The notes beneath the pieces were generated by a model. That model ran no database searches. It had not been told where the DNA came from and saw nothing but the letters and a program-made list of their open reading frames with translations. Positions 6,171 to 16,799 of a DNA stretch of 30,118 nucleotides are shown one piece after another. The stretch lies in IMG/VR virus record IMGVR_UViG_3300032296_001364, positions 1 through 30,118 of that record; one strand, 5' to 3'. Numbering within the stretch: the first letter of the stretch is position 1; each line of letters begins with the position of its first letter. This DNA is from a virus. The position numbers and the translations under genes were made by a program.

Positions 6171-8213
6171 ATGTTTAGTGTTGATTTTAGTTTCATAAAT
6201 ACAGAAGAGTTTTCTCCGGAAGCAAAAAGATTTCAAACAAATGCTTTAAGGGGAAAAGAATGCTATATTGACGAACCAAAAGAATCGTTAGCTTGGAAAG
6301 AATATTGGGATGAACAAGAATATTATTGTAGAAACGGATATTCTGTAGGTGGAATTAGAATTACAGGAGAACATTATTTTTATCTAAACTTTTGTCAGAT
6401 TAAATTAACTGCTGCTGGTAATGCTAAAGAAAGAGTTTCTAAACAAAAAGTAGAAAAGCAAGTTACATTTCCTGCATTTTGGGATAGTGACTGGTTTTAT
6501 TTTACAGAATGTGAAATAGCTAGAGAGTTGGGTGAACACATGATCATCCTTAAACCTAGACGTAGAGGGTATTCTTATAAGAATGCTGCAAAGTGTGCTT
6601 GGATGTATACCTTTACTAGAGCATCTACTTCATTAATTGTAGCTGAACTATCTACATACTCTGAAGAAACTATGGGTATGGCTGTTAACTATTTGAACTT
6701 TTTATCTTTATATACTGACTTTGGTAAGAACAGATTGGTCGATAAACCTAAAGAAGAAATACTTGCAGGGTTTGAACAAGATGGTATTAAACAAGGTTCT
6801 TTTAGTAAGATACTTGCTTTTACAACTAAAACTAATGCAGGTATTTTAAGGGGAAAAGATGCAAACATTGTATTGTTTGAAGAAGCAGGTACTTTTGGTA
6901 ACTTGCTTGCTACGTATAATGCAACTAAAGCTCTTGTACAAGAAGGTACAAATGTAAGTGGTCAAATGTTTGTTTTTGGAACAGGTGGGGACTTTGCAGG
7001 TGGTCAAGTGGATTTTGAAAAAATGTTTTATGATCCTGAAACATATGGGTTTAGAGCATATCAAAATGTATATGATGACGGTAGATCCGGAACAACTATT
7101 GGTTACTTTTTACCAGATTATTATTCTAAAGGTGGTTATATAAATAAAGGTATATCTGAAATAGAACCTGCTAAAATGGCTATTGAACAAGAAGTTGAAA
7201 GACTTAAAAGAAGTTCAAAAGACAGAAATGCTTTAGATGCTTATCTTGCAGAATTTCCAAGAACTCCCTCAGAAGCATTTATTAAAATAGGAACTAATAT
7301 TTTTCCTAAAGCTGAACTAAACCAACAGATTAATGAAATACGTTCTAGAAAAGAACTTCAGTATTTAGGTACTTGTGGTGAGTTATCAGTTAATCCTCAA
7401 GGAGTTGTAATTTTTGAACCCAAAGATGATTTAAAACCAATATTGAATTTTCCTTATAAACCTGATGTAGATGGTGAAGGTTGCTTTATACAATACCAAC
7501 CTCCTTATAAAAATGGTGGAGTTGTGCCCGCAGAACTATATTATATTGCTGTCGATCCTTATGCTATTGATAAAGGTAAAGATAAAAAGTTAACCAAAAG
7601 AGACTCATTAGGAGCAGCTTATGTTTTTAAAAGAGTAAATAATTTTTCAAAACCTTACGATTTAATTGTAGCTGAATACGTAGCTAGACCTAATTTACAC
7701 GATACTTTTAACAAAACTCTTTTTGATATGGCTGATTATTACAATTGTAAAATTGTATACGAGAACGATAGGGATGGTGATATAGAATCTTATGCTAGGG
7801 TTAATAAAAAACTTCATAGATTAGAATTTGAACTTACTGTTTACGATAGTAATGATGCTCCAAGAAGACAACTTGGAAGACGTTATGGTGTGAGTATGAG
7901 CAACATAGAAGTAAAAAAGACTGCTGTTTCTTATTTAAGAGATTGGCTTATAGCACCAAGAGATAAAGACATAAACGGTTTACAAGAACTAAATCTTCAT
8001 AAAATATATAGTATTCCTTTATTAGAAGAAATTATTAAATTTGATTATGAAGGAAACTTTGATAGGGTTTCTGCTTTACTTGTAGCAATGTTGTATAAAA
8101 AAGAACTTTTGTTAAAACCTGCTGTAACAGAAAAAAGATATAATCCCTATACAGATGATGAGTTTTTTAGAAGATTTGAACCTGATTTTGGTAATAATAG
8201 ATTAGAATATTAA
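6171..8213 (+). CDS. terL: Large terminase subunit (packaging ATPase-nuclease)
   Basis: A 680-aa protein with both terminase domains. The ATPase has a deviant Walker A at 129-137 (PRRRGYSYK) and a Walker B at 233-240 (IVLFEEAG) with the catalytic Glu pair. The RNase H-like nuclease shows D462 in YIAVDPYAID, an acidic block near E531 (ENDRDGD) and D631 in FDRVSALLVAM, the three expected acidic positions. TerL binds the portal, pumps DNA into the prohead and cuts the concatemer. The length and the R-rich Walker A agree with crAss-like terminases. It follows the candidate TerS by two bases and precedes the portal promoter. Confidence 0.93.
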   Translation: MFSVDFSFINTEEFSPEAKRFQTNALRGKECYIDEPKESLAWKEYWDEQEYYCRNGYSVGGIRITGEHYFYLNFCQIKLTAAGNAKERVSKQKVEKQVTFPAFWDSDWFYFTECEIARELGEHMIILKPRRRGYSYKNAAKCAWMYTFTRASTSLIVAELSTYSEETMGMAVNYLNFLSLYTDFGKNRLVDKPKEEILAGFEQDGIKQGSFSKILAFTTKTNAGILRGKDANIVLFEEAGTFGNLLATYNATKALVQEGTNVSGQMFVFGTGGDFAGGQVDFEKMFYDPETYGFRAYQNVYDDGRSGTTIGYFLPDYYSKGGYINKGISEIEPAKMAIEQEVERLKRSSKDRNALDAYLAEFPRTPSEAFIKIGTNIFPKAELNQQINEIRSRKELQYLGTCGELSVNPQGVVIFEPKDDLKPILNFPYKPDVDGEGCFIQYQPPYKNGGVVPAELYYIAVDPYAIDKGKDKKLTKRDSLGAAYVFKRVNNFSKPYDLIVAEYVARPNLHDTFNKTLFDMADYYNCKIVYENDRDGDIESYARVNKKLHRLEFELTVYDSNDAPRRQLGRRYGVSMSNIEVKKTAVSYLRDWLIAPRDKDINGLQELNLHKIYSIPLLEEIIKFDYEGNFDRVSALLVAMLYKKELLLKPAVTEKRYNPYTDDEFFRRFEPDFGNNRLEY

Positions 8214-8218
8214 CTTTG
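8188..8218 (+). promoter_or_regulatory. Promoter for portal gene
   Basis: TTG at 8188-8190, a 20-base spacer and TAACTTTG at 8211-8218 fit the Bacteroidota consensus exactly. The extension TAAC after the motif recurs at other late promoters. The portal ATG is 17 bases further on, giving a short leader. Confidence 0.65.
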
Positions 8219-10603: not shown

Positions 10604-10636
10604 TTGAAATTAAGAACGAATAACAATTTAAATTTG
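10604..10636 (+). promoter_or_regulatory. Promoter for scaffold-capsid unit
   Basis: TTG at 10604-10606, a 22-base spacer and TAAATTTG at 10629-10636 fit the consensus with a slightly long spacer. The motif continues TAAT, close to the TAAC of the other late promoters. The ATG at 10646 follows after 9 bases, so the leader would be very short. Confidence 0.45.
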
Positions 10637-10645
10637 TAATAGAAA

Positions 10646-11731
10646 ATGAGTGAACCAAAACCAAGTGAAGGGTTTGACGATTTAGATTTTGATTTATCTA
10701 AAGTAGTCCCTGACCCGAAGGGAGATAGTCTTAAGACAGACTTAGACCCTGAGCCTACACCGGAACCAACTCCGGAACCTAAAAGAGGTAGGCCTAAAAA
10801 AGTTGAACCAACTCCAGCTCCAGTTGTTGATCCAGAACCAGAGCCGGAACCAGAACCTGAACCTACAGATGATCCTGAACCTATTGAGTCAAGTTTGTTT
10901 AAAACTTTAGCTGAATCGTTAGGGATTGAATTAGGTGAAGAAGATGAGTATGAAGAGACTGAAGAAGGATTAGCCAAGTTTGTTTCTACTACTGCTGATA
11001 AATTAGCAGATTCGAAACTAAACGGTTGGTTAGAATCTCTTCCTTCTGTAGCTTCTGATTTCTTTGATTATCTTCAAATGCTTGGTGAAGAAGCAAACGA
11101 AGATAACGTTAAAAAGTTCTTTACTTCTGTGAACCCTGAAATAGATTTTAAATCTATTGATTTGACTAATGAAGATGCTCAAAAAGCTGTAATGCGTACA
11201 TTCTATAAAAAGATGGATTATACAGATGAAGAAATTAAAGAAGCATTAGATGATTTAGAAATTGGAGGTACTTTAGCAAAGAGTGCTAAAATTGCTTCTG
11301 CTAAATTAGCTGCTAAACAAGATCTAGAAAGAAATGAGCTTATTGAAAAACAAAAAGCTGCTGATTTAGAAAAAAGAGAAAAAATTAAAAGGTATTGGGA
11401 TAGTGTAGGCTCTACCATTAAATCCGGTAAAGTTGGAAACTTTAACATTCCTACTACTGAACAACAAGGAGTTTTAGAATATATGTCTAAACCTACTAAA
11501 TCAGGAGTTCCACAATTGCAAGAAGATTTAAATGCAATGAGTGTAGAAGACAGAATCCAGTTAGCAATAGCTGTAAAAAACAAATTTAATCTAAGTAAGT
11601 ATATATCAGCTGCTGTAAAAACAGCACAAGCTTCTACTCTAAAAGATAGACTCGCAAAAGGCGGTGTTAAACTTAAGGGTGGTGCTCAAGCTACAACTTT
11701 ATCAGATGATATAGAGTTTACTATTAAATAA
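10646..11731 (+). CDS. Acidic head scaffolding-like protein with AT-hook
   Basis: A 361-aa acidic protein between portal and MCP, the usual scaffold position. Residues 34-79 are Glu-Pro/Thr-Pro repeats, interrupted at 46-52 by KRGRPKK, a textbook AT-hook (basic-GRP-basic). The rest is helical: GIELGEEDEYEETEEGLAKF, a coiled coil at about 210-250 (DLERNELIEKQKAADLEKREK) and a basic C-terminal part (KTAQASTLKDRLAKGG). Scaffolds are elongated, charged, helical proteins that template capsid assembly and leave or are degraded. The AT-hook is odd for a scaffold and might attract DNA or only be low-complexity drift. A permanent internal head protein is the alternative. Confidence 0.65.
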   Translation: MSEPKPSEGFDDLDFDLSKVVPDPKGDSLKTDLDPEPTPEPTPEPKRGRPKKVEPTPAPVVDPEPEPEPEPEPTDDPEPIESSLFKTLAESLGIELGEEDEYEETEEGLAKFVSTTADKLADSKLNGWLESLPSVASDFFDYLQMLGEEANEDNVKKFFTSVNPEIDFKSIDLTNEDAQKAVMRTFYKKMDYTDEEIKEALDDLEIGGTLAKSAKIASAKLAAKQDLERNELIEKQKAADLEKREKIKRYWDSVGSTIKSGKVGNFNIPTTEQQGVLEYMSKPTKSGVPQLQEDLNAMSVEDRIQLAIAVKNKFNLSKYISAAVKTAQASTLKDRLAKGGVKLKGGAQATTLSDDIEFTIK

Positions 11732-11763: not shown

Positions 11764-13212
11764 ATGGCACAATTTCTAATGGACCAAGTGTGGAATGAAC
11801 AAATGAAAAGCAATGATGCTTCGTTTGCTCGTTTGATTAACGCACAACCTGACAAAATCGCTCCTGTACTCACACATATGATGGGTCAAGAGAGTTCTCG
11901 TTTCCCGCTTATGTATCTTTCTGAAGGTATGCAAGCTATTCAAGAAGTTGATGGTGATGAGTTTGAATACGACGTAATTGGTCGTATGCTCAAAGCTGTT
12001 CCTCTTCAAGCTCCTCCTACAGGTTCTTATGCAAGCTCTTCTGGAGTTAGCGGAACTGAATTTACTCTTTACTTTAATGAAGGTATCTTCCCTGTAGGTT
12101 ACACTATTCTTTCACCTTTAGGTTACCAACTTCGTATTACAGGACGTAATAACAGTAATGGTAACTGGGCTTACACTGTGAAGTTAGTAGTTAAAAATCT
12201 TTCAGAGTCTTTACCTGCAAGTGAGCTTGCAACCGGTGCATTGTATGCTTGTGGTTGGAACTCTGTAGCAAGTTTCGGTTCATTCGGAAGTTTGTCTACT
12301 TCAACTGCTCCTGTTAAAGTTCGTGGTGATGTGGGTACTATTCGTAAAGGTTATGCTTACGAAGGTAACATCAAATATCGTAAAGCTAAGACTGTTCAAC
12401 TTGACACTAAAAATGGTGGAACAAAAGAAATGTATTGGCCTTATGAAGAGTATCAGCACAATATGAGTTTCCGTATCGAATGTGAAACTAACTACTGGTA
12501 TTCTCAATCAAACCGTGATGCTTATGGTGTTATCAATGAGCGTGACGAACAAGGTAATCCTATCGTAAGGGGTTCAGGTATGTTTGAGCAAATTAGTAAC
12601 AAAGATACTTATGGTACTTTGACTGCTGATAAGATTGACCAAACTATTCGTGATACTTTCTACGGTATGAGTGATGCTGAAAATAAAGTAATTACTCTTT
12701 TCACCGGTGTGGGTGGACGTATGGCTTTTGACCAAGCTATGAAGGCAGAACTTTCTAATCGTGGTTACATCAAATTAACTGACAACAAGTTTGTTGGTGG
12801 ATCTGGTTACAACTTGAGTTTAGGTGGTTTCTTCGATACTTACCAACACGTTGATGGTTACAAAGTAATTATCAAAACTGCATCTCTTTTTGATAATGGA
12901 CCACAAGCTTTAGCTTCTCCTAAACACCCTAATTATCCTAACCTTCCTCTTGAGTCTTTCAGGATGGCATTCGTAGATACTTCTACTTATGATGGTATGA
13001 GTAACTTGGTTATGGTGTCTAAAAAAGGACGTGCTATGTTACGTGGTATGGTTAAAGGTATCAACGAAGCTGCTTCAGGTACTAGCTTCTCTGCAAACGA
13101 TGTGATTTCTACCGATAAAGATGGTAGCTCAGTTCACTTCTTAAAAGCAGGTCAAGTAGTATTGAGACGTTTCAATACCTCAGTAGATCTTAAGTGTATT
13201 GCTGGATTGTAG
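11764..13212 (+). CDS. Major capsid protein (HK97 fold, crAss type)
   Basis: A 482-aa protein whose N-terminus (MAQFLMDQVWNEQ, then PVLTHMMGQESSRFPLMYLSEG) matches crAss-like MCPs as I know them. The rest is consistent with an HK97-fold shell protein: an E-loop-like region (YDVIGRMLKAVPL), a long mixed middle with many Gly/Asn turns, and a C-terminal A-domain-like end (GQVVLRRFNTSVDLK). Arginine is almost always CGT here, against AGA in TerL and the portal, the sign of very high expression. The leader is an A-rich run ending AAAACAAACA with no Shine-Dalgarno. An intrinsic terminator follows at 13225-13255. Confidence 0.92.
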   Translation: MAQFLMDQVWNEQMKSNDASFARLINAQPDKIAPVLTHMMGQESSRFPLMYLSEGMQAIQEVDGDEFEYDVIGRMLKAVPLQAPPTGSYASSSGVSGTEFTLYFNEGIFPVGYTILSPLGYQLRITGRNNSNGNWAYTVKLVVKNLSESLPASELATGALYACGWNSVASFGSFGSLSTSTAPVKVRGDVGTIRKGYAYEGNIKYRKAKTVQLDTKNGGTKEMYWPYEEYQHNMSFRIECETNYWYSQSNRDAYGVINERDEQGNPIVRGSGMFEQISNKDTYGTLTADKIDQTIRDTFYGMSDAENKVITLFTGVGGRMAFDQAMKAELSNRGYIKLTDNKFVGGSGYNLSLGGFFDTYQHVDGYKVIIKTASLFDNGPQALASPKHPNYPNLPLESFRMAFVDTSTYDGMSNLVMVSKKGRAMLRGMVKGINEAASGTSFSANDVISTDKDGSSVHFLKAGQVVLRRFNTSVDLKCIAGL

Positions 13213-13287: not shown

Positions 13288-14166
13288 ATGAAAACGATTA
13301 AAATTCAAAGAAAAGAAGTCCGTAGATACGGTGTTCACGTTTCGTTGACCCAAGAAAGGTCAGCAACAATCGGAGGTTACTTGTTAAAATCAGGAGCCAC
13401 CGGAACAGGTTTAACTTTTGACCAAATGAAAAAATGGATGCCGGGTATTCTAGGAGTAGAATATACTGACCCTAAATTCAGAGCAGAAGTTACAAAACAT
13501 TTTAACAATGTAATGATTCCTATTCCTTATGAGGGAAAAGAACTTAACATTACATTAGATGAAAGTGGAGAACCTGAAAATCTTGATGATTATATTAAAT
13601 ATCTTTTTGTAAAGAATCATCCAAAAGTAGCAGAATCAAAAAGTGTTTCTGATATGGACCAATACAAAGAGTACTATATTGAAGATCAAGAGTTAGAGCA
13701 ATCTAAGAAAACTAAAAAACTTAGGTCTAAAACTTCAGCTACTATTAAATTTGCTGAATTGATTAATGACGAAGTTAAGTTGGATTGGGTAGCTAGAGAG
13801 CTTACGGTAAAATATCCTAAAGAGTTAGGTTCTATTGCGGTTCTTACTTCTTTACCTAAAGAAGAAAAAGAACTTAAAGTTTCTGAAGTGTTTGAGAAAG
13901 ACCCAGATTACTTTATGCAAGTAGTATCAGATTCTGATTTGTCTTACAAAGCTCAAATCGCTTCTATGGTTGAAAGTCAAATCATTCAGAAAGTGGGTAA
14001 CGAATATGTTTATGGTTCTGAACCATTAGGTAACTTAGAAGGTGCAATTGCATATTTGAAAAATCCTAATAACTCTGAAGCATATACTATTATGTTAGCT
14101 AAACTTACTAATATGGGAGTAGGCTTTAAACAAAAAGAGGCAAAAAAAGTTGAAAAAGTAAAATAA
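13288..14166 (+). CDS. Post-capsid structural protein, crAss-conserved type, unknown
   Basis: A 292-aa protein right after the MCP and its terminator. The N-terminal 70 residues hold IQRKEVRRYGVHVSLTQ and TFDQMKKWMPGILGVEYTDPKF, followed by a beta stretch with MIPIPYEGKELNITLDESGEP. The second half is helical (IKFAELINDEVKLDWVARELTV) and ends in a basic tail. The position after MCP fits a capsid auxiliary or vertex protein of crAss-like phages, but I cannot assign it to a specific virion part. Arginine codons return to AGA, so it is expressed less than the MCP. It has no promoter of its own, so it depends on readthrough of the MCP terminator. Confidence 0.65.
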   Translation: MKTIKIQRKEVRRYGVHVSLTQERSATIGGYLLKSGATGTGLTFDQMKKWMPGILGVEYTDPKFRAEVTKHFNNVMIPIPYEGKELNITLDESGEPENLDDYIKYLFVKNHPKVAESKSVSDMDQYKEYYIEDQELEQSKKTKKLRSKTSATIKFAELINDEVKLDWVARELTVKYPKELGSIAVLTSLPKEEKELKVSEVFEKDPDYFMQVVSDSDLSYKAQIASMVESQIIQKVGNEYVYGSEPLGNLEGAIAYLKNPNNSEAYTIMLAKLTNMGVGFKQKEAKKVEKVK

Positions 14167-14171
14167 AAAAA

Positions 14172-14199
14172 ACTCACCTATTGTAAAAGATAGGTGAGT
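14172..14199. other. Stem-loop between structural gene and tRNA
   Basis: A perfect 10-bp stem (14172-14181 with 14190-14199) closes an 8-base loop. The T-run needed for rightward termination is absent; instead an A-run precedes it, so it would terminate leftward transcription, where no gene is seen. It ends only 4 bases before the tRNA and could instead mark or shape the 5' processing site, or stabilise the upstream mRNA end. Confidence 0.5.
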
Positions 14200-14203
14200 A
14201 TAT

Positions 14204-14277
14204 CGTGGGATGGAGCAGCTTGGTAGCTCGTTGGACTCATAATCCAAAGGTCGAAGGTTCAAATCCTTCTCCCGCAA
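14204..14277 (+). tRNA. Initiator-type tRNA-Met (anticodon CAT)
   Basis: A complete 74-base cloverleaf without encoded CCA; bases after A73 read CAA. The anticodon CAT is at 14238-14240 in loop CTCATAA. It carries three initiator marks: an unpaired C1-A72 end of the acceptor stem (CGTGGGA against TCCCGCA), a D stem GAGC/GCTC with A11-T24, and close overall likeness to bacterial fMet tRNAs (GGAGCAGC..GGTAGCTCG, AAGGTCG). Of the three anticodon-stem G-C pairs typical of initiators, two remain and the innermost is A-T (TTGGA/TCCAA). It lies in the same direction as the structural operon. It may boost initiation late in infection. Confidence 0.9.
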
Positions 14278-14290
14278 CAAATAAAATGAT

Positions 14291-15361
14291 ATGAATATAC
14301 AAGAAATGCACGTAGCTATCAACACTGAAATGAATAAAATCAATTCAGCTTTGTTTGAGGTTCTTTTACCTCAAGAGATAGACTTTGCAATAAACAATAG
14401 TATATTACGTTTCATCAAACAACGTTATAGTGCTGACTCAAATCTTAAAAGAAAAGGTTTTGAAATGAGTCAGAAAAGAATTGATGATCTTAGAACTTTA
14501 ATTACACCTAATTATACAGCAAAAGCATTTGTACCTAATTCTTATGACCCGGATTTAGCAGAAAAAGTTTTGTTTTATTTTCCTGGAGATTATATGTTTT
14601 CTGTAAATGCTAGGTTTAAAGTAGCTGATAACGAATGTGGTACTTTTACTTATACTACGTCTACAGTACAATATTCTTTAGATATGTTAGACATTAATGC
14701 TTTGGGTATAACTAACTGGGCTAATTTTAGAATTAGAAACAATACTGATAGTTATGTATTAAGTTTGGGTGCCGATGCTACTGAATACAATGCAACTGAT
14801 GATTTAACTTACATTGTAAGGATAATTCTTCAAAAACTTAGAGACCAATATAACTTTTCACAATATGAATTTTATTGGGAAAATTATCATGGTACTTATT
14901 ATAAAAATAAAATAATTATAGTTAATAAGACTGCTACTGATTGGGAATATGCAACAGATGGTAGTACTTATACTGATTGGACTGCTTCTACAGAAACAGC
15001 TTTGACGTATTATAGTAATACGCCAAATTCTACAACAAGTGGAAAGTTAGTTCAAGAAGATGATATATTTGCAATGCAAGTTGATCCGTTTAACAAGACG
15101 GTACCTGACTTTCCATTGTACTTTACGTCTAACTATAACTATAACGTTTATATAGATAGAAATATATTTGTTGTAACAGATGGAATTTTATCGTATATTC
15201 GTAACCCGAAAACTGTATCTTTTTATTTAAATCAGGATTGTGATTTACCTGAGCATACACATAGTGAAATTGTAAGTATGACTGTAGATTATATTCTTGA
15301 GACTGTGCAAGCAGGAGAAAGATACAAAACGCATCAAGAAATTGTTGCGACAAATGAGTAA
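14291..15361 (+). CDS. crAss-like neck ring protein (portal-proximal type)
   Basis: A 356-aa protein whose start, MNIQEMHVAINTEMNKINSA followed by LPQEIDFAINNSILRFIKQRY, resembles conserved crAss-like neck proteins that form rings below the portal. The first 80 residues are helical, ending in FEMSQKRIDDLRTLI, a block typical of this family. The remainder is beta-rich with many aromatic residues (DRNIFVVTDGILSYIRNP) and ends in a short helix (HSEIVSMTVDYILETVQAGERY). By analogy it contacts the portal and begins the tail. It is separated from the other two ring-type genes by 9 kb of fibre and lysis genes. It starts 14 bases after the tRNA. Confidence 0.75.
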   Translation: MNIQEMHVAINTEMNKINSALFEVLLPQEIDFAINNSILRFIKQRYSADSNLKRKGFEMSQKRIDDLRTLITPNYTAKAFVPNSYDPDLAEKVLFYFPGDYMFSVNARFKVADNECGTFTYTTSTVQYSLDMLDINALGITNWANFRIRNNTDSYVLSLGADATEYNATDDLTYIVRIILQKLRDQYNFSQYEFYWENYHGTYYKNKIIIVNKTATDWEYATDGSTYTDWTASTETALTYYSNTPNSTTSGKLVQEDDIFAMQVDPFNKTVPDFPLYFTSNYNYNVYIDRNIFVVTDGILSYIRNPKTVSFYLNQDCDLPEHTHSEIVSMTVDYILETVQAGERYKTHQEIVATNE

Positions 15362-16719: not shown

Positions 16720-16740
16720 TTATAATCTGTTTCTCTTATA

Positions 16741-16772
16741 AAGGCCGTTACTTAATTGTAACGGCTTTTTTT
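16741..16772 (+). terminator. Intrinsic terminator after the 439-aa gene
   Basis: GCCGTTAC at 16744-16751 pairs with GTAACGGC at 16758-16765 (8 bp, extendable by G-U and two A-T pairs), loop TTAATT, followed by seven T. It is a textbook rho-independent terminator 22 bases after the stop. Confidence 0.88.
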
Positions 16773-16799
16773 ATTTATTATAATTTTTAAAATAAATAT

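Follow-up and report, generated by a model that had tools for sequence, protein, structure and literature searches.

A hairpin and an exchangeable tRNA-shaped element between capsid and ring genes of crAss-like phages: a putative transcript-processing module

Between the capsid and tail-ring genes of a group of crAss-like phages lies a hairpin followed, a few nucleotides on, by a tRNA-shaped element. Comparison of relatives establishes the architecture of this pair, its fixed spacing, the turnover of the element that fills the slot and covariation in the structure of that element. Selection appears to keep a tRNA shape at a fixed distance behind the hairpin rather than an anticodon, so that the body may be an initiator tRNA, a tRNA-Trp or a mimic. 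We think it somewhat more probable than its negation that hairpin and tRNA together serve to process, or punctuate, the transcript of the late structural genes. A wider proposal, in which a class of crAss-like phages uses a hairpin and tRNA mimic as an RNase P-dependent device for forming mRNA 3′ ends and separating capsid from tail messages, with the slot tRNA interchangeable with mimics that Rfam misses, seems to us evenly balanced. The evidence throughout is comparative sequence: relatives comprise about 100 contigs gathered by capsid-protein searches, counts refer to related contigs, and the IMG/VR contigs are fragments.

The window (the whole 30,118-nt stretch analysed, IMG/VR record IMGVR_UViG_3300032296_001364) is a genome fragment of 30 kb from a crAss-like phage, with portal and large terminase genes upstream of the major capsid gene; its crAss-type major capsid protein, portal and terminase place it in the Crassvirales (PF23898, E 2e-59; phrog_6547; phrog_6681). 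The tRNA gene sits within the capsid operon and on its strand, between a gene for which family searches gave no match and the ring-like gene (Table 1). A promoter-like motif precedes the gene at 10646, and a search of the window for this motif found no further copy from there to 16190. A terminator-like hairpin follows at 16740. From these patterns, capsid genes, module and ring genes are probably on a single transcript. Another TTG-N-TAnnTTTG motif is located at 8211–8218, directly upstream of the portal gene. Motifs resembling a Shine-Dalgarno sequence were seen in just 3 of the 28 window genes inspected. Bacteroidota ribosomes make no use of such motifs (PMC9976891), and their scarcity is as expected for a Bacteroidota host, an assignment made solely from Bacteroidota-like signals.

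Table 1. Features of the window around the hairpin–tRNA module
Feature	Position	Strand	Basis or remark
Bacteroidota-type promoter-like motif, TTG-N-TAnnTTTG	10629..10636	+	motif match; ahead of gene 10646, which precedes the capsid gene
Major capsid protein	11764..13212	+	Pfam Crass_capsid, E 2.3e-59
292-aa gene between capsid gene and module; probable head auxiliary protein	13288..14166	+	function from position
Perfect 10-bp hairpin, ACTCACCTAT / ATAGGTGAGT, 8-nt loop	14172..14199	+	proposed 3′-end stabiliser of capsid mRNA
Single-stranded spacer ATAT, 4 nt	14200..14203	+	proposed RNase P leader; predicted cut after 14203
Initiator-type tRNA(CAU): C1×A72, A11-U24, G29-C41/G30-C40/A31-U39, A73, no encoded CCA	14204..14277	+	ARAGORN, Rfam, direct reading
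Short A-rich leader left on downstream mRNA after putative tRNA excision	14278..14290	+	no Shine-Dalgarno motif
Ring-like protein, first gene past module	14291..15361	+	Pfam CrAss_Ring_3_4 (below its cut-off); phrog_15924
Intrinsic-terminator-like hairpin with T-run, end of presumed transcription unit	16740..16776	+	terminator pattern

ARAGORN and Rfam agree on one tRNA(CAU) at 14204–14277/8 and on no other tRNA in the window; it scores 62.4 bits (E 1.8e-11). A chance tRNA-like fold is ruled out by this 62-bit score and by the covariation described below. A sequence-only reading of this DNA had proposed an initiator tRNA, citing a C1-A72 mismatch and an A11-T24 pair, and direct reading bears out both. 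C1 (14204) is opposed to A72 (14276), consistent with the absence of a strong 1–72 pair in initiators (C1×A72, or U1-A72 and U1×U72 in Bacteroidota), and A11 (14214) with U24 (14228) provides the purine 11–pyrimidine 24 pair. The anticodon CAT occupies 14238–14240. The tRNA is 0.89 identical to its best match among about 100 distinct bacterial initiators, and the true elongator-Met and Ile(CAU) genes in host loci all have an elongator D stem (AGCTC..GAGC) and a GG.. acceptor. In that comparison, the ‘best other CAT’ gene, L232, was a variant initiator itself. The A11-U24 pair, the acceptor stem and the likeness to host initiators thus rule out elongator Met or tRNA-Ile(CAU), and by D-stem type and similarity the gene is classed as initiator type.

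The anticodon stem is less canonical, in agreement with the earlier reading: G29-C41 and G30-C40 are joined by A31 (14235)-U39 (14243), which replaces one of the three G-C pairs of initiators, and relatives have AGG, AGC or GGG. Among about 155 matches listed for Bacteroidia host initiators, three depart from GGG/CCC, all as AGG/CCU, and none has GGA; since these are almost all GGG/CCC, the relaxed motif is mostly a phage feature. When all three pairs are altered in an E. coli initiator, the tRNA is still charged and formylated but does not initiate (PMC10486304); phage CAU forms alter one or two of the three. The missing third G-C weakens the description of the window tRNA as fully canonical and leaves its initiator type standing. 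The bases after A73 (14277) are CAAA and the gene thus lacks an encoded CCA, again as first read; many Bacteroidota initiator genes likewise lack it, and its absence is ordinary. The gene encodes a real initiator-type tRNA, which ribosomes could probably use as well.

The stem-loop noticed earlier four bases upstream is confirmed as a strong fold (−15.8 kcal/mol, z −7.1, 0 of 200 shuffles as good), and the accompanying guess that it helps processing looks like the centre of the matter. Followed on the + strand by ATATCGTG, it does not have the T-run of an intrinsic terminator, which rules out a coding-strand terminator role; it fits the terminator pattern on the − strand only.

The same arrangement recurs across relatives. 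In the sister clade and the basal lineage, all 26 contigs that extend beyond the capsid gene (including L037, which ends inside the element) have a hairpin, 3–5 nt, a tRNA-shaped element and an ACAA-type end directly after that gene. In the window's own clade, the module is placed one gene later, after the gene following the capsid gene, and is present in 9 of the 19 contigs covering the site. Hairpin and element are 3–5 nt apart in every relative carrying the element. That 10 of the 19 do without the tRNA implies a function that is dispensable or replaceable; a short conserved hairpin is found at the site in L002, L003, L004, L012 and L023, a hairpin with T residues in L017, L018, L020 and L021, and nothing clear in L016. 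The first of these, GAGCCGACGAGTTTAGTCGGTTTCACA, is an exactly conserved 27-nt hairpin (L004:5459-5485 and the same gap in the other four) confined to those five contigs within the viral collection; it may be a processing site of a different kind or a site for protein binding. In more distant relatives the capsid gene is followed by a plain hairpin, usually with a T-run, and the median longest T-run is 2 with an element behind the hairpin versus 4 without (Mann-Whitney p 4.5e-4, the sequences being related). The gut crAss phages crAss002, Rudgehvirus, cr107_1 and Carjivirus were rejected as carriers, as they leave about 17–26 nt between the capsid gene and the next, which is too short. BLAST of the module against named phages returned nothing beyond tRNA-to-tRNA or hairpin matches, and the collection of papers searched contained none on a tRNA punctuation role in phages.

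The slot is filled by initiator-type CAU tRNAs (11 distinct variants), by tRNAs with a CCA (Trp) anticodon and G73 (L052, L059) and by elements outside either class. TLS-1 (L029, L030, L032, L036, L063, L073, L074) has a 5-pair acceptor, a D arm and a T arm and, at the anticodon-arm position, a covarying stem with a 6-nt loop of sequence unrelated to an anticodon loop; its L029 copy gave no match to the Rfam tRNA model even at E 1. TLS-2 (L024–L027) folds as a cloverleaf whose anticodon loop has 6 nt and whose D loop is reduced, and the L056 element combines a 7-bp acceptor and a T arm with a long arm of about 60 nt, scoring 17 bits against the Rfam tRNA model (cut-off 29). Common to all types are an acceptor-like stem and T arm, plus a D-like arm. 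Acceptor stem and T arm are the part of a tRNA that RNase P recognises.

Conservation in TLS-1 indicates that this anticodon-less family is not decaying. Its pair cells are paired in 96.6% of cases (86.2% in shuffles), 9 of 21 pairs show double changes (0 of 500 shuffles), and covariation reaches 0.365 (0 of 500 shuffles; slid controls at most 0.10), with the replacement arm covarying at 6 of 7 pairs and the D and T loops conserved. The CAU group is similarly constrained (98.3% paired, 44 double-change cells, covariation 0.576). Its anticodon loop CTCATAA, A11-U24 and G30-C40 are the same in all 11 variants, and changes fall instead in pairs 29-41 and 31-39; U1-A72 occurs in 9 of the 11, a state with host precedents. 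As the loop never varies, the anticodon-bearing copies are probably working tRNAs as well, and these invariant features, which count against a role in punctuation only, suggest that the CAU copies probably still decode.

Occupants turn over in a constant frame. Mapped onto a tree of capsid proteins from 33 phages, the occupant requires about 12 changes among 6 states. L035 (initiator) and L030 (TLS-1) carry unrelated bodies in flanks whose identity is 99.93% across 3 kb upstream and 99.75% across 0.8 kb downstream, which is a body-for-body replacement; an assembly chimera is unlikely, as L036 repeats the swap from another sample and as L006/L023 and L056/L057 are further exchanges in the region. 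L006 and L008, with flanks 99.6–99.8% identical, show how fast the body alone can change: of their 8 tRNA differences, 6 fall in three anticodon-stem pairs, each of them compensated, and the loop is the same in both. TLS-1 is also found in the basal lineage (L073/L074).

A processing role would operate as follows. RNA polymerase would read from the capsid genes into the tail-ring genes, and the tRNA fold would draw host tRNA-processing enzymes. RNase P cleavage at 14203/14204 would leave a capsid mRNA ending in the hairpin and a 4-nt tail, resisting 3′ exonucleases, and a cut at the tRNA 3′ end would give a ring/tail mRNA whose short leader, A-rich and unstructured, is of a type that Bacteroidota translate without Shine-Dalgarno pairing. 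Stabilisation of the mRNA and unequal expression would follow from these putative cleavages. As such a role predicts, the element has a tRNA-shaped fold with an acceptor–T stack and is placed between cistrons on the same strand, on what is probably a single transcript, and the conserved and swapped anticodon-less occupants provide evolutionary evidence for a function that is independent of the anticodon. The commonest mimic, with its 5-bp acceptor, 3×2 internal loop and absence of an RCCA end, may however be a poor RNase P substrate.

The earlier reading had instead suggested a dedicated initiator that raises late translation. If decoding were the purpose of the slot, the phage's own initiator would boost late initiation or replace that of the host, and the mimics would be decayed pseudo-tRNAs. 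The initiator determinants of the window tRNA, the loop kept in all CAU variants despite varying stems and the CCA anticodon and G73 retained in two Trp variants are consistent with this. As an account of the slot it is nevertheless unlikely, because compensatory change in the anticodon-less family is strong and its D and T loops are conserved, which is not a pattern of decay, because that family extends to the basal lineage, and because initiator and mimic are swapped in near-identical backgrounds, so that a decoding role is not constant. The initiator identity is supported, but raised late translation is not supported as the main function: the slot in close relatives houses tRNA-Trp or anticodon-less mimics, exchanged within flanks up to 99.9% identical.

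It is less likely still that the slot is a cassette for tRNAs resistant to anticodon nucleases such as VapC, with rapid exchange of bodies and mimics serving as decoys. VapC cuts initiator tRNA and phage tRNAs have been proposed to evade such nucleases (PMC10264068, PMC12482277), and the L006/L008 pair, re-paired around its loop in near-identical flanks, would fit. However, the mimics do not have an anticodon loop, which is where these nucleases cut, and in the CAU group that loop is invariant; one study found that phages as a rule did not encode tRNA-fMet where it is a VapC target (PMC10264068), and the hairpin and its fixed spacing are left unexplained. Replacement of a host initiator lost to a tRNA-cutting defence, also raised earlier, is possible for the CAU subset, whose loop is invariant while its stem is repeatedly re-paired, and leaves the anticodon-less forms unexplained.

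Strong transcription is usual for late operons. If the excised RNA were itself a small regulator or an enzyme inhibitor, acting for example on a host RNA-binding protein, and the operon served it as a strong late promoter, this would draw on that transcription and on structure conserved without decoding. Such a function is nevertheless improbable, since at least three unrelated body sequences fill the slot, making a sequence-specific regulator unlikely, and the fixed hairpin spacing suggests a role in cis.

Supply of codons by a tRNA set is ruled out by the content of two relatives. The near-complete G001 has one canonical tRNA and one Leu-like element with a long insert and no other above the cut-off, which makes bulk codon supply unlikely, and the tRNA-less relative G002 has no tRNA above it. 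Leu-like tRNA elements that have long inserts and lack a clear anticodon arm (L144, L145, L147; G001:11962-12074, G010:50961-51073, G002 about 30838-30960) lie, in G001 and G002, among the replication genes and ahead of one beginning MK(K/R)TW(I/V)YDLEVFKEI. Other tRNA-like elements were also observed: a 63-nt element with acceptor, D-like and T arms and apparently no anticodon arm (L273; G004:24618-24680, −), and three lying within 3 kb of one another among the early genes of a related phage, two of them degenerate (L275; G009:53859, 56076, 56593). In a distant crAss-like phage (capsid about 41% identical), an 8-bp hairpin, ATTT (4 nt) and a tRNA with a UCU anticodon lie between two small genes, which repeats the hairpin, leader and tRNA design at another locus (L272:3084-3155 reverse complement; G007:78846-78917, −).

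Processing of the transcript would account together for hairpin spacing, the missing T-run, anticodon-less occupants and their exchangeability, whereas decoding or nuclease evasion alone would cover only the CAU and Trp subset. Processing and decoding are compatible, in that a slot kept for the former may on occasion receive a useful tRNA. The presence of tRNA genes in phages is a long-standing puzzle, for which codon supply or nuclease evasion is the usual answer. Close relatives here offer a natural experiment, since their near-identical genomes differ in one respect only, the slot being occupied either by an initiator tRNA or by a non-decoding mimic. If the processing model is correct, it is their shape that preserves some phage tRNAs, a set of functional RNA elements in phages escapes standard tRNA annotation, and it becomes possible to test a simple way in which an abundant phage group could express the genes of its structural operon unequally.

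The arrangement resembles mitochondrial tRNA punctuation, in which tRNAs lie between coding genes and excision would free the flanking mRNAs, but here there is one slot in a phage operon, with a hairpin in front and often an anticodon-less mimic, and cleavage is predicted. To our knowledge, bacterial operons cut by RNase P, such as his, contain no tRNA gene or dedicated tRNA-shaped module. Intercistronic RNase P processing of the kind envisaged here has been described for bacterial polycistronic mRNAs including the his operon (Alifano 1994; Li and Altman 2003; both as cited in PMC11143913). Like the phage-encoded tRNAs of T4-type clusters, for which evasion through the anticodon loop has been hypothesised (PMC10264068), the window has a gene for a complete tRNA; unlike them, it is a single initiator-type tRNA inside a structural operon, in a slot whose identity is not conserved. 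In the mammalian MALAT1/mascRNA and NEAT1 (MENβ)/menRNA pairs, RNase P cleavage at a tRNA-like RNA forms the 3′ end of the upstream RNA, which bears its own protective structure, as the phage hairpin would. The phage module differs in belonging to a bacterial virus and a protein-coding operon, in having a simple hairpin in place of a triple helix and in an occupant that is exchangeable and may be a true tRNA. By this analogy, the module could, with about equal chances for and against, be in effect the bacterial-virus counterpart of MALAT1-type 3′-end formation.
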